Shown: one piece after another, positions 1 to 59,035 of the stretch
How positions within the stretch are numbered: the first letter of the stretch is position 1
Layout: the number at the start of each line of letters is the position of its first letter
Source: Metellina segmentata
Taxonomy: Eukaryota > Arthropoda > Arachnida > Araneae > Tetragnathidae
Reading direction: 5' to 3'
Assembly (NCBI GenBank): GCA_947359465.1
Contig: OX375874.1
Span: forward strand, 86,109,672 to 86,173,671
Length of the DNA stretch: 64,000 nucleotides
Notes under the pieces: model-generated
What the model saw: only the letters and a program-made list of their open reading frames with translations
What the model was told of the DNA's origin: nothing
Databases searched by the model: none
Made by a program: the position numbers and the translations under genes

Positions 1-316
1 GACTACATTAAGTGCTATGTGTTTTTGGTATTATTCCCTATGCTCTTTACCTTAATAAATCAGAATAGTGATAACCCTATCGAACAGAGAAAAGAAAGTC
101 TGCTGAGGTGGACAAAAGAACTGTTTTTTAACTAATAACTACATGAATTATAAAATCAAAACTGAACAGTATTAACTTCTAAAATTGAAAAATGAACATA
201 CGTATAAATTTACTTCAATTCAAAATAAATTGACACCACGCGTAAGCATAAAAAAAAAGACACGTAAGCAAATGCGAATTGTCCCAGTGCACCAGAAAAA
301 GGACGAAAACAAAATC

Positions 317-388
317 CCCGCCGGCGGGGAATCGAACCCCGGTCTCCCGCGTGACAGGCGGGGATACTTACCACTATACTACCGAGGA
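317..388 (-). tRNA. tRNA-Asp(GUC) copy 1
   Basis: The 3' acceptor strand is CCGGCGG (C3xC69, U1 wobble). One D-loop change. Confidence 0.75.
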
Positions 389-704
389 CTACATTAAGTG
401 CTATGTGTTCTTGCTATTATTCCCTATACTCTTTACCTTAATAAATCTGAATAGTGATAACCCTATCAAAGAGAGCAAAGAAAGTCTGCTGTGGTGGACA
501 AAAGAACTGTTTTTTAACTAATAACTACATGAATTATAAAATCAAAACTGAACAGTATTAACTTCTTAAAATTGGAAAATGAACATACTTTAAAATTTAC
601 TTCAATTCAAAATAAATTGACACCACGCGTAAGCATAAAAAAAAAAGACACGGAAGCAAATGCGAATTGTCCCATTGCGATAGAAAAAGGACGAAAACAA
701 AATC

Positions 705-776
705 CTCCACGGCGGGGAATCGAACCCCGGTCTCCCGCGTGACAGGCGGGGATACTCACCACTATACTACCGAGGA
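705..776 (-). tRNA. tRNA-Asp(GUC) copy 2
   Basis: One acceptor mismatch, U4xU68. Confidence 0.82.
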
Positions 777-1092
777 CTACATTATGTGCTATGTGTTTTT
801 GCTATTATTCCCTATGCTCTTTACCTTAATAAATCAGAATAGTGATAACCCTATCGAACAGAGCAAAGAAAGTCTGCTGAGGTGGACAAAAGAACTGTTT
901 TTTAACTAATAACTACATGAATTATAAAATCAAAACTGAACAGTATTAACTTCTTAAAATTGAAAAATGAACATACGTATAAATTTACTTCAATTCAAAA
1001 TAAATTGACACCACGCGTAAGCATAAAAAAAAAAGACACGGAAGCAAATGCGAATTGTCCCAGTGCAATAGAAAAAATAAGAAAACGAAATC

Positions 1093-1164
1093 CTCCCCGA
1101 CGGGGAATCGAACCCCGGTCTCCCGCGTGGCAGGGTGGGACACTCACCACTATACTACCGAGGA
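1093..1164 (-). tRNA. tRNA-like, anticodon GCC (Gly), copy 3
   Basis: The Asp scaffold has loop CTGCCAC. The 5' anticodon-stem strand is CCACC, giving mismatches 29x41 and 30x40 ('weak stem'). Confidence 0.65.
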
Positions 1165-1482
1165 CTACATTAAGTGCAATGTGTTCTTGCTATTATTCCC
1201 TATGCTCTTTACCTTAGTAAATCAGAATAGTGATAAACCTATCGAACAGAGCAAAGAAAGTCTGCTGAGGTGGACAAAAGAACTGTTTTTTAACTAATAA
1301 CTACATGAATTATAAAAACAAAACTGAACAGTATTAACTTCTTAAAATTGAAAAATGAACATACGGATAAATTTACTTCAATTCAAAATAAATTGACACC
1401 ACGCATAAGCATAAAAAAAAAAAAGACACGGAAGCAAATGCGAATTGTCCCAGTGCACCAGAAAAAGGACGAAAACAAAATC

Positions 1483-1554
1483 CTCCCCGGCGGGAAATCG
1501 AACCTCGGTCTACCGCGTGACAGGCGGGGATACTCACCACTATACTACCGAGGA
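1483..1554 (-). tRNA. tRNA-Asp(GUC) copy 4
   Basis: Outer anticodon-stem pair 27-43 is lost. The T stem has one wobble and one further change. Confidence 0.72.
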
Positions 1555-1872
1555 CTACATTAAGTGCTATGTGGTTTTGCTATTATTCCCTATGCTCTTT
1601 ACCTTAATAAATCAGAATAGTGATAACGCTATCGAACAGAGCAAGGAAAGTCTGCTGAAGGTGGACAAAAGAACTGTTTTTTAACTAATAACTACATGAA
1701 TTATAAAATCAAAACTGAACAGTATTAACTTCTTAAAATTGAAAAATGAACATACGGATAAATTTACTTCAATTCAAAATAAATTGACACCACGCATAAG
1801 CATAAAAAAAAAAAGACACGGAAGCAAATGCGAATTGTCCCAGTGCACCAGAAAAAGGACGAAAACAAAATC

Positions 1873-1944
1873 CTCCCCGGCGGGAAATCGAACCCCGGTC
1901 TACCGCGTGACAGGCGGGGATACTCACCACTATACTACCGAGGA
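1873..1944 (-). tRNA. tRNA-Asp(GUC) copy 5
   Basis: Near twin of copy 4, with the T-stem 5' strand intact. Confidence 0.75.
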
Positions 1945-2259
1945 CTACATTAAGTGCTATGTGGTTTTGCTATTATTCCCTATGCTCTTTACCTTAATAA
2001 ATCAGAATAGTGATAACGCTATCGAACAGAGCAAGGAAAGTCTGCTGAAGGTGGACAAAAGAACTGTTTTTTAACTAATAACTACATGAATTATAAAATC
2101 AAAACTGAACAGTATTAACTTCTTAAAATTGAAAAATGAACATACGTATAAATTTACTTCAATTGAAAATAAATTGACACCACGCGTAAGCATAAAAAAA
2201 AGACACGGAAGCAAATGCGAATTGTCCCAGTGCAATAGAAAAAGGACGAAAACGAAATC

Positions 2260-2331
2260 CTCCCCGGCGGAGAATCGAACACCGGTCTCCCGCGTGAAAG
2301 GCGGGGATACTCACCACTATACTACCGAGGA
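2260..2331 (-). tRNA. tRNA-like, anticodon TTC (Glu), copy 6
   Basis: The loop reads CTTTCAC, the only copy with anticodon UUC. The anticodon stem is intact. The T stem has U51xU61, which also damages the B box. Confidence 0.65.
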
Positions 2332-2648
2332 CTACATTAAGTGATATGTGTTTTTGCTATTATTCCCTACGCTCTTTACCTTAATAAATCAGAATAGTGA
2401 TAACCCTATCGAACAGAGCAAAGAAAGTCTGCTGTGGTGGACAACAGAACTGTTTTTTAACTAATAACTACATGAATTATAAAATCAAAACTGAACAGTA
2501 ATAACTTCTTAAAATTGAAAAATGAACATATGTTAAAATTTACTTCAATTCAAAATAAATTGACTCCACGCGTAAGCATTAAAAAAAAAAGACACGGAAG
2601 CAAATGCAAATTGTCCCAGTGCGATAGAAAAAGGACGAAAACAAAATC

Positions 2649-56577: not shown

Positions 56578-56888
56578 CTACATTAAGTGCTATGTGTTTT
56601 TGCTATTTTTCCCTATGCTCTTTACCTTAATAAATCAGAATAGTGATAACCCTATCGAACAGAGCAAAGTCTGCTGAGGTGGACAAAAGAACTGTTTTTT
56701 AACTAATAACTACATGAATTATAAAATCATAACTGAACAGTATTAACTTCTTAAAATTGAAAAATGAACATACGTATAAATTTACTTCATTTAAAAATAA
56801 ATTGACACCACGCGTAAGCATAAAAAAAAAGACACGGAAGCAAATGCGAATTGTCCCAGTGCACCAGAAAAAGGACGAAAACAAAACC

Positions 56889-56959
56889 CTCCCCGGCGGT
56901 GAATCGAACCCCGGTCTCCCGCGTGGCAGGCGGGGTACTCACCACTATACTACCGAGGA
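56889..56959 (-). tRNA. tRNA-like, anticodon GCC (Gly), copy 140 (71 nt)
   Basis: Intact-stem GCC type as copy 137, with a fully paired acceptor; only G51xA61 and the single-base deletion. Confidence 0.7.
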
Positions 56960-57274
56960 CTACGTTATGTGCTATGTGTTTTTGCTATTATTCCCAATGC
57001 TCTTTACCTTAATAAATCAGAATAGAGATAACCCTATCGAACATAGCAAAGAAAGTCTGCTGAGGTGGACAAAAGAACTGTTTTTTAACTAATAACTACA
57101 TGAATTATAAAATCAAAACTAAACAGTATTAACTTCTTAAAATTGAAAAATGAACATATGTATTAATTTACTTCAATTCAAATTAAATTGACACCACGCG
57201 TAAGCATAAAAAAAAAGACACGGAAGCAAATGCGAATTGTCCCAGTGCACCAGAAAAAGGACGATAACAAAACC

Positions 57275-57345
57275 CTCCCCAGCGGTGAATCGAACCCCGG
57301 TCTCCCGCGTGGCAGGTGGGGTACTCACCACTATACTACCGAGGA
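57275..57345 (-). tRNA. tRNA-like, anticodon GCC (Gly), copy 141 (71 nt)
   Basis: As copy 137 plus A30xC40. Confidence 0.65.
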
Positions 57346-57661
57346 CTACATTAAGTGCTATGTGTTTTTGCTATTATTCCCAATGCTCTTTACCTTAATA
57401 AATCAGAATAGTGATAACCCTATCGAACATAGCAAAGAAAGTCTGCTGAGGTGGACAAAAGAACTGTTTTTTAACTAATAACTACATGAATTATAAAATC
57501 AAAACTGAACAGTATTAACTTCTTAAAATTGAAAAATGAACATACGTATAAATTTACTTCATTTCAAAATAAATTGACACCACGCGTAAGCATAAAAAAA
57601 AAAGACACGGAAGCAAATGCGAATTGTCCCAGTGCACCAGAAAAAGGACGAAAACAAAACC

Positions 57662-57732
57662 CTCCCCAGCGGTGAATCGAACCCCGGTCTCCCGCGTGGC
57701 AGGCGGGGTACTCACCACTATACTACCGAGGA
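57662..57732 (-). tRNA. tRNA-like, anticodon GCC (Gly), copy 142 (71 nt)
   Basis: As copy 137. Confidence 0.68.
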
Positions 57733-58044
57733 CTACATTAAGTGCTATGTGTTTTTGCTATTATTCCCAATGCTCTTTACCTTAATAAATCAGAATAGTG
57801 ATAACCCTATCGAACATAGCAAAGAAAGTCTGCTGAGGTGGACAAAAGAACTGTTTTTTAACTAATAACTACATGAATTATAAAATCAAAACTAAACAGT
57901 ATTAACTTCTTAAAATTGAAAAATGAACATATGTATAAATTCAATTCAAAATAAATTGATACCACGCGTAAGCATTAAAAAAAAAAGACACGGAAGCAAA
58001 TGCGAATTGTCCCAGTGCACCAGAAAAAGGACGAAAACAAAATC

Positions 58045-58116
58045 CTCCCCGGCGGGGAATCGAACCCCGGTCTCCCGCGTGACAGGCGGGGATGCACACC
58101 ACTATACTACCGAGGA
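58045..58116 (-). tRNA. tRNA-Asp(GUC) copy 143
   Basis: Two D-arm changes; other stems intact. Confidence 0.8.
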
Positions 58117-58428
58117 CTACATTAAGTGCTATGTGTTTTTGCTATTATTCCCTATGCTCTTTACCTTAATAAATCAGAATAGTGATAACCCTATCGAACA
58201 GAGCAAAGTCTGCTGAGGTGGACAAAAGAACTGTTTTTTAACTAATAACTACATGAATTATAAAATCAAAACTGAACAGTATTAACTTCTTAAAATTGAA
58301 AAATGAACATACGTATAAATTTACTTCAATTCAAAATAAATTGACACCACGCATAAGCATAAAAAAAAAAGACACGGAAGCAAATGCGAATTGTCCCAGT
58401 GCACCAGAAAAAGGACGAAAACAAAATC

Positions 58429-58500
58429 CTCCCCGGCTGGGAATCGAACCCCGGTCTCCCGCGTGACAGACGGGGATACTCACCACTATACTACCGAGGA
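58429..58500 (-). tRNA. tRNA-Asp(GUC) copy 144
   Basis: G49xA63 and U31-G39 wobble. Penultimate unit; its spacer is already diverging. Confidence 0.75.
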
Positions 58501-58834
58501 CTACGATAAGTGTTATGTGTTTTTGCTATTATTCCTTATGCTCTTTACCTTAATAAATCAGAATAGTGATAACCCTATCGAAGAGGGCAAAGAAAGTCTG
58601 CCGATGTAAAGTCTGCCAAAGTAAGTATTTTTTTTAACTCGTAACTACATGATTTATAATATCGAAATTTAACAGTATTAACTTCTTAAAATTAAGAAAT
58701 GAATATAAGTCTAAAATAAATTGGAATTCAAAATAAATTGACATCACATGCAAGCATAAAAAAAAAAAAAAAAAAAAAAACTGAATATAATGCGAACTGT
58801 CCCAGTGCACTAGAAAAAGGACGAAAACAAAATC

Positions 58835-58906
58835 CTCCCCGGCGGGGAATCGAACCCCGTTCTCCTGCGTGACAGGCGGAGATACTCAACACTGTACTAC
58901 CGAGGA
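58835..58906 (-). tRNA. tRNA-Asp(GUC) copy 145, array-edge copy
   Basis: Last copy. Changes in the A box, D loop and anticodon stem (C29xA41, U27-G43 wobble) while acceptor and T stems stay intact. Confidence 0.7.
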
Positions 58907-59035
58907 TTACGATAAGTATTGTGTGTTTTTGCTATTATTCCTTATGCTATCTGCCTCAATGCGTCAGAATAGTGATTACCCTATCGAACAGAGGAAAGAA
59001 GATCTGCTGATGTGGGCAAATAACTGTCTCTTTCA
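58907..59035. repeat. Decayed terminal spacer of the array
   Basis: Recognisable spacer words (GTGTTTTTGCTATTATTCC, CCCTATCGAACAGAG) persist with many substitutions until about 59035, after which similarity ends. Confidence 0.7.

Follow-up and report, generated by a model that had tools for sequence, protein, structure and literature searches.

A satellite-like tRNA-Asp array and further isotype-pure tRNA arrays in the genome of a spider

Introduction

Why does an animal genome carry the same tRNA gene hundreds of times in a row, and are such copies maintained as genes or propagated as a satellite? This question is raised by a stretch of 64,000 nucleotides from the spider Metellina segmentata (C2:86,109,672-86,173,671, called the window in the following), which is located on a 138-Mb contig of a 1.665-Gb genome of 173 contigs and is largely occupied by tandem tRNA-Asp(GUC) units. 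A sequence-only reading had claimed at least 145 tRNA-Asp genes in a single array running off the left edge of the window, and had proposed a tRNA-derived satellite, possibly acting as a chromatin domain or boundary. Here, satellite-like growth and homogenization are shown for the Asp array, which is one of several isotype-pure tRNA arrays distributed over this genome.

Structure and extent of the tRNA-Asp array

Positions 3-59,049 of the window consist of head-to-tail units of ~387 bp harboring one tRNA-Asp(GUC) gene or relic each, without exception on the minus strand. A search with a unit profile yielded 146 matches, 145 of them nearly full length, and Tandem Repeats Finder reported a 386-387-bp unit with 52.0 copies at 1-20176 and 93.3 copies at 22927-59027. 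By these two methods, the array is divided into a left block of ~52 units of ~387 bp (3-20171, minus strand) and a right block of ~93 units (22927-59049, minus strand) with diverged units at its end. The 141 tRNA genes identified by ARAGORN all share the minus strand; 124 were assigned as Asp(GUC) and 17 were named Gly, Glu, Val or Thr, and since the latter keep the array spacing, they were read as mutated Asp copies. With Infernal/Rfam, 138 tRNAs exceeded the gathering score and 29 reached the top score of 60.4 bits. Head-to-tail order, a common strand and a tRNA gene per unit, as expected of a tandem tRNA array, were thus found in the window.

On the tRNA strand, the unit shows TCCTCGGTAGTATAGTGG at its start, followed by box A, box B and two T-runs right after the gene. 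The copy at 5742-5813 (minus strand; ARAGORN, Infernal), which has the exact consensus and is one of the 29 in the window scoring 60.4 bits, serves as an example: box A TAGTATAGTGG is located at 5796-5806 (exact in 303/327 core units, as defined below), box B GGTTCGATTCC at 5753-5763 (exact in 223/327), and a double T-run TTTTGTTTT resembling an RNA polymerase III (Pol III) terminator at 5731-5739, 2 nt past the discriminator base, all on the minus strand. The rightmost tRNA-Asp copy (58835-58906, minus strand; ARAGORN, Infernal) lies in a diverged unit and scores 48.9 bits.

The extent of the array was read from 200 kb around the window. This region contains 340 unit matches, 332 of them nearly full length and all on the minus strand, spanning 86,011,038-86,168,720. 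The first three form an outlying fragment at 86,011,038-86,012,072; the main array comprises 337 matches read over ~150 kb. These counts leave out two stretches inside the array of 7.5 and 10 kb, one of which ends at the left edge of the window; at 387 bp per unit they are estimated to hold ~19 and ~26 units, giving a total of ~385 units, 45 of these estimated. Among 296 unit sequences, 244 were distinct.

The sequence-only reading had therefore described the locus correctly in several respects. One tRNA-Asp unit per ~387 bp on the same strand was confirmed by Tandem Repeats Finder, unit profile and ARAGORN. The array does leave the left edge of the window and reaches ~86,018,650 on the same contig, ~91 kb further left, and it is, as stated, a satellite-like array of one isoacceptor in an animal. 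The figure of at least 145 holds for units (146 matches) but is too high for genes, because many copies are damaged; furthermore, a 2,751-bp transposon at 20176-22926 that interrupts the array had been passed over.

Evolution of the tRNA-Asp array

A length filter was passed by 334 of the 340 matches, and 327 of these lie in the core; all per-copy counts refer to these 327 units. Core units differed from the consensus by block means of 7.4-12.6 positions (12 blocks), seven units at the left edge by 50-94 of 387. The best-matching partner was found at offsets of 3, 5, 6, 7, 9, 13, 14, 16 or 21 units, shifting along the array, with some of these values based on as few as 4 pairs; adjacent units (offset 1) were most alike in none of the 12 blocks. 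A partner identical over the aligned columns existed for 107 of the 327 core units. The array displays the hundreds of tandem copies, the higher-order periods and the diverged edges that characterize satellite DNA. From the changing periods and the diverged edges we infer that unequal exchange and block duplication probably operated here, as in satellites.

The 327 core copies were examined for purifying selection acting on the Asp tRNA at the level of single copies, by substitutions, matched variants, stem pairs and diversity, and none was found. Substitutions per site amounted to 0.0319 in the tRNA, 0.0408 just downstream of it and 0.0205 in the spacer. The tRNA contained 106 distinct variants as compared to 79.8 expected from mid-spacer rates matched for base and CpG, and 36 singletons as compared to 42.2 expected with the same matching; within the mid-spacer, G and C sites varied more than A and T sites. 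All 21 stem pairs were intact in 124 copies, and one-sided stem changes kept the pair in 105 of 527 cells. The tRNA was perfect in 56 copies, boxes A and B were both exact in 201 units, and TTTT occurred at unit positions 71-95 in all 327 units, in 282 of them at most 14 nt from the gene. Copies of a fully paired tRNA that have both Pol III boxes and a terminator are thus still present in the array.

Other tRNA arrays in the genome

Genome DNA and tRNA-family searches were evaluated with 4 to 63 scored candidates each, and all genome counts are lower bounds; in the tRNA-family search, 63 of 300,537 candidates were scored, 57 of them in one region of C10. Eight isotype-pure arrays of seven isotypes were read, namely Asp, Lys, Thr, Pro, Glu, Val and two of Gly. 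The Lys(UUU) array (C10:114.6 Mb) has a spacing of ~307 bp and 33 genes in 10 kb, and within 4 kb the Thr array (C8:89.9 Mb) holds 18 genes whose anticodons alternate between CGU and UGU. The Pro array (C2:108.8 Mb, ~410 bp) alternates UGG and AGG, and the Glu(UUC) array (C7:62.8 Mb) has a period of ~271 bp. Units of only 133-139 bp form the Val array (C12:41.8 Mb), in which 16 of 21 profile-found copies carry AAC and the others different Val anticodons. The two Gly arrays, designated Gly-C2 (C2:111.1 Mb) and Gly-C10 (C10:33.8 Mb), show spacings of ~340 bp and ~272 bp, respectively.

Regular spacing of matches suggests six further arrays: Asn (C11:86.2 Mb, multiples of ~1,389 bp), His (C8:109.9 Mb, ~1,697 bp), initiator Met (C9:5.35-5.72 Mb, many gaps being multiples of ~240 bp), Leu (C4:65.36 Mb, five matches ~440 bp or double that distance apart), Phe (C13:65.7-65.8 Mb, many gaps being multiples of ~359 bp) and Ala (C7:71.4 Mb, many gaps of ~441 bp). 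The single copy read from the putative Asn array is Asn(GUU). The genome thus probably contains fourteen isotype-pure tRNA arrays. Clusters were found for 13 of 13 isotypes with resolved matches, in a survey where Ser and Tyr were merged with a better-matching tRNA and had no listed match, and where Arg, Cys, Gln, Ile, elongator Met and Trp lay outside the queries.

A common origin of the arrays was considered and rejected: a comparison of the eight arrays, each represented by a single spacer, revealed no convincing likeness (best E-value 0.003 over 22 bp). As the spacers are unrelated, the arrays probably arose separately.

Additionally, the 300,537 first-look tRNA-like candidates genome-wide are far beyond what arrays explain; the surplus may perhaps stem from tRNA-derived short interspersed elements (SINEs).

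Conservation of tRNA genes and spacers

The arrays were compared using profile-detected units; the set of ARAGORN-detected units alone, which favors intact tRNAs, gave the same direction in all seven other arrays. The ratio of tRNA to spacer diversity was below 1 in six of the eight arrays: 0.25 for Gly-C2 (9 units), 0.26 for Thr (15 units), 0.44 for Lys (32 units), 0.62 for Val (20 units), 0.64 for Glu (17 units) and 0.84 for Pro (6 units), with few units behind the values for Gly-C2 and Pro. Asp showed a ratio of 1.59 (327 units). Since conservation of the tRNA exceeds that of the spacer in six of the seven other arrays, comparison of these sequences points to the tRNA genes as the target of selection, at least there. 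The lowest spacer diversities of all were found in Gly-C10 (0.020) and Asp (0.037). As these two arrays combine the least diverse spacers with ratios above 1, their amplification may have been recent and may have left selection too little time.

The consensus tRNAs are well paired, with 21/21 stem pairs in Thr, Glu, both Gly and Lys and 20/21 in Pro and Val. Two-sided stem changes kept the pair in 15 of 15 cells (Thr 9, Pro 3, Glu 3), counted as copies and not as independent events; the other four arrays contained no such changes. The consensus of the Lys array (L035) has a fully paired anticodon stem TTTGG/CCAAA, which departs at several pairs from the usual animal tRNA-Lys(UUU) stem.

These comparisons modify the sequence-only reading. 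The description of a tRNA-derived satellite matches the evolution of the Asp copies, in whose tRNA no copy-level constraint was found; in six other arrays, the tRNA varies less than the spacer. The Asp array had been seen correctly as such, but similar arrays of six more isotypes, and the six more suggested, had gone unnoticed.

Dispersed tRNA genes

Among the scored matches, at least 14 to tRNA-Asp lie outside the array. Position 20 is A or C in all three dispersed Asp genes read, as compared to G in the array consensus. One Asn array copy (L045) differs from one dispersed Asn gene (L039) at five positions; a compensated change of an acceptor pair from C-G to T-A, at linear positions 5 and 69, accounts for two of these. 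Among the candidates scored, dispersed Asp, Asn, His and Phe matches coexist with arrays.

Dispersed tRNA-Phe and tRNA-Asp genes were also observed 10 nt apart on one strand (L038:702-858), and Asp and Phe matches are about equally close at five loci (two on C4, two on C7, one on C8). This suggests that a Phe-Asp gene pair has been copied around the genome.

Transposons and spidroin matches

The DNA transposon of 2,751 bp (20176-22926, minus strand) lies inside one array unit and carries 18-bp terminal inverted repeats, matching at 16 of 18 positions, with TTAA on both flanks. It contains an intact frame of 627 amino acids (20795-22678, minus strand) encoding a Mutator-like transposase (PF20700, E-value 4.9e-70). 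The TTAA flanks resemble those of Kolobok elements and are unlike 9-bp target duplications. Among the best 120 of 302 transposase matches listed, the few with an organism named were cnidarian. To the right of the array, a Tc1-like element (60182-61443) is bounded by 44-nt terminal inverted repeats of 93% complementarity and contains pieces of a broken transposase (PF01498, and PF13358 below its cut-off).

Searching for the spidroin C-terminal domain (PF11260) yielded 23 matches in this genome, which identifies the host as a spider; in 14 control genomes, all of prokaryotes, the domain was not found. The matches include C8:33.9-34.4 Mb, C3:87 Mb and C4:4 Mb; several are located in very long open frames, the longest comprising 13,786 amino acids on C7. 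A role of the tRNA arrays in silk production only was rejected: judged by the amino-acid composition of spidroins, the Gly, Pro and Ala arrays fit, in contrast to those of Asp, Lys, Glu, Asn, His, Phe and initiator Met.

Discussion

We favor, with a probability of about 0.4, the reading that these are gene arrays which grew by unequal exchange and would provide tRNA in bulk at restricted stages, by analogy with repeated tRNA genes elsewhere, and that the Asp array is young or relaxed. Each array would have arisen from one ordinary tRNA gene amplified head to tail together with its own flank. Presumed unequal exchange and local block duplication would keep the copies similar; edge-to-core divergence and changing higher-order periods are demonstrated for the Asp array. 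The resulting "array-type" tRNA set may be transcribed in bulk by Pol III at restricted stages, with oogenesis appearing likeliest, and dispersed genes would serve other tissues. Selection would act on the output of a whole array and not on single copies, and a young Asp array could thus hold many damaged copies beside 56 perfect ones. The nearest precedent for stage-specific supply is the zebrafish, where, according to the excerpt of PMC11417395, maternally deposited tRNAs originate from highly repetitive regions, and isolated genes provide the tRNAs made later. Doubtful at present, although worth stating, is the more far-reaching idea that orb-weaving spiders possess a double tRNA gene system, with dispersed genes serving the body and a near-complete arrayed set which would give almost all isotypes a long satellite-like array of their own, would be activated as a block for egg provisioning, and whose individual copies would be free to decay.

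A number of observations weigh against the bulk-supply reading. Its stage-specific step is an analogy. In the Asp array, nucleotide diversity is higher in the tRNA (0.0583) than in the spacer (0.0367), and is so in 25 of 27 blocks; at least one stem pair is broken in 203/327 copies, two-sided stem changes still pair in none of 13 cells, and the anticodon is changed in 28/327 copies (GTC 299, GCC 23, other 5). The Gly-C10 array shows an even higher ratio of 2.19, determined from few (11) units. Throughout the seven other arrays, one-sided stem changes keep the pair in only 50 of 170 cells (compare the 105/527 in Asp), and copies with at least one broken pair are frequent: Lys 18/33, Thr 9/18, Pro 3/8, Glu 13/18, Val 15/21, Gly-C2 4/10 and Gly-C10 6/12. 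None of the Lys copies is identical to the Lys consensus, and the 15 compensated cells count copies. The His array matches are 100% identical to dispersed His genes, and A20, found in one dispersed Asp gene, occurs in 62/327 Asp array copies; hence, an array-specific tRNA type is not general. Finally, the only copy read from the putative initiator Met array (C9:5451171-5451275, L046) has the anticodon UAU and was named Ile by ARAGORN.

A close rival, and a serious possibility, is that the arrays are selfish satellites: tRNA genes would readily seed tandem amplification, one conceivable reason being that Pol III genes cause replication forks to stall and thereby favor unequal exchange, the arrays would grow and shrink neutrally, and dispersed genes would supply the tRNA. 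For the Asp array alone this fits as well or better. No copy-level constraint is seen in the Asp and Gly-C10 arrays, the Asp core is more uniform and its edges are old, intact dispersed Asp genes are present, and some damaged copies occur in every array read. Neutral growth is, however, at odds with the stronger conservation of tRNA than of spacer in six of eight arrays, even though the tRNA is GC-rich and G/C sites are the more variable ones in the Asp mid-spacer, with the pairs kept in all 15 two-sided cells of Thr, Pro and Glu, and with the 20 or 21 of 21 stem pairs in the consensus tRNAs of the other seven arrays. Rather unlikely, and compatible with the other readings, is the view that the extra variation in the Asp tRNA was left behind by germline transcription (transcription-associated mutagenesis), or by ectopic conversion involving other tRNA-like sequences, which would mean that the copies are active or once were. 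Elevated mutation of tRNA genes was reportedly described by Thornlow in 2018, and distinct variants exceed expectation not only in the tRNA (106 versus 79.8), but also in the 5' flank (59 versus 35.8) and the 3' flank (57 versus 40.9). However, singletons, which represent the newest changes, show no excess in the tRNA (36 versus 42.2), the 3' flank (15 versus 20.6) or the 5' flank (17 versus 17.0), and inspection of the spectra by eye, without a formal test, revealed no clear strand asymmetry.

We consider it improbable that the arrays have a chromatin role, as domains bound by Pol III factors or as insulators or boundaries for which tRNA output is irrelevant. Box A is exact more often than the mean spacer 11-mer (0.927 as compared to 0.833, standard deviation 0.104) and TTTT follows every core Asp copy, but box B, the main binding site of TFIIIC, is exact less often than that mean (0.682 as compared to 0.833). 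The arrays share no common spacer element, as judged from one spacer each, and many different isotypes would be needless for a boundary; on the other hand, a human tRNA tandem repeat binds CTCF and was proposed to be a boundary (excerpt of PMC4041453). Tandem arrays are difficult to assemble, and one or a few copies could in principle have been inflated artificially; this is very improbable in view of the 244 distinct among 296 unit sequences, the transposon inside the array, the diverged edges and changing higher-order periods, and the presence of other isotypes in separate arrays.

Comparison with known systems

Among the papers listed in literature searches, none had a title or abstract opening reporting tandem tRNA arrays in spiders, which is weak evidence as most subscription papers were beyond the reach of the searches. 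Large tRNA counts appear in four spider genome papers, the excerpts of which give neither an explanation nor arrays. Excerpts report 5,821 tRNA genes in Pardosa and 3,653 in Trichonephila after filtering, and 3,084 plus 57,824 pseudogenes in Uloborus; the 12,193 tRNA genes reported for Araneus marmoreus are an unsure figure, because the same sentence of the excerpt puts all non-coding RNAs together at 9,818, a smaller number. In the excerpt of a further spider genome paper (PMC9170102) tRNA annotation is mentioned and nothing more on tRNA, and the word tRNA is absent from the Argiope bruennichi genome paper (PMC7788392). Isotype-pure arrays could account for thousands of tRNA genes in spider genomes. 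Furthermore, the series within one genome, from Gly-C10 and Asp with near-uniform spacers and unconstrained tRNA to Thr with very diverged spacers and conserved tRNA, offers a view of selection versus unequal exchange in multicopy genes, and array-diagnostic bases make the expression of arrayed tRNA genes, and its site, directly testable.

In the oocyte 5S and tRNA repeats of Xenopus, Pol III genes are repeated in tandem by the hundreds, variant copies and pseudogenes among them, and oocyte-type and somatic-type genes are distinguished; unlike the spider arrays, the oocyte tRNA repeat contains several isotypes per unit. The zebrafish clusters, mainly on chromosome 4, resemble the spider situation in that highly repeated tRNA genes, there of the maternal type, exist beside isolated ones (PMC11417395); they differ in that adjacent pairs are mostly heterogeneous (PMC2888827), whereas each spider array read has one isotype. 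Here and below, papers are compared by their excerpts. Nematostella and teleosts are animals with fifty and more tRNA genes per cluster; pairs in Nematostella and zebrafish are mostly heterogeneous, homogeneous pairs occur in Tetrahymena, Monosiga and drosophilids, and isotype-by-isotype arrays are not described there (PMC2888827). The human variable-number tRNA repeat at 1q23.3 is likewise an animal tandem repeat with tRNA genes and variable copy number, but it has GC-rich, CTCF-binding units of 7.3 kb in 9-43 copies per allele (PMC4041453), as compared to AT-rich units of ~0.39 kb in hundreds of copies in the spider.

The Ser-Tyr-Tyr cluster of Arabidopsis is likewise a tandem array, with its major copies in the core and pseudogenes in variable edges, and its cluster-type sequences are unlike the dispersed genes, as may hold for some of the spider arrays; it differs in its plant host, its tens of genes, its heterochromatic and methylated state, two isotypes per unit and its known expression, which is shut off in most tissues and resumes in cells of the root cap (PMC12308677). 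In Entamoeba, many separate tandem arrays exist, each with its own unit and mostly uniform within an isolate, but with up to five tRNA genes per unit and with almost all tRNA genes arrayed (PMC2652664). The spider genome likewise harbors many distinct arrays of different isotypes (eight arrays of seven isotypes read). Several isotypes per unit were not found in these arrays, Thr and Pro alternating two anticodons within one isotype; the spider arrays are thus distinguished from those of Entamoeba by one isotype per array read, by the animal host and by the coexistence of dispersed genes.

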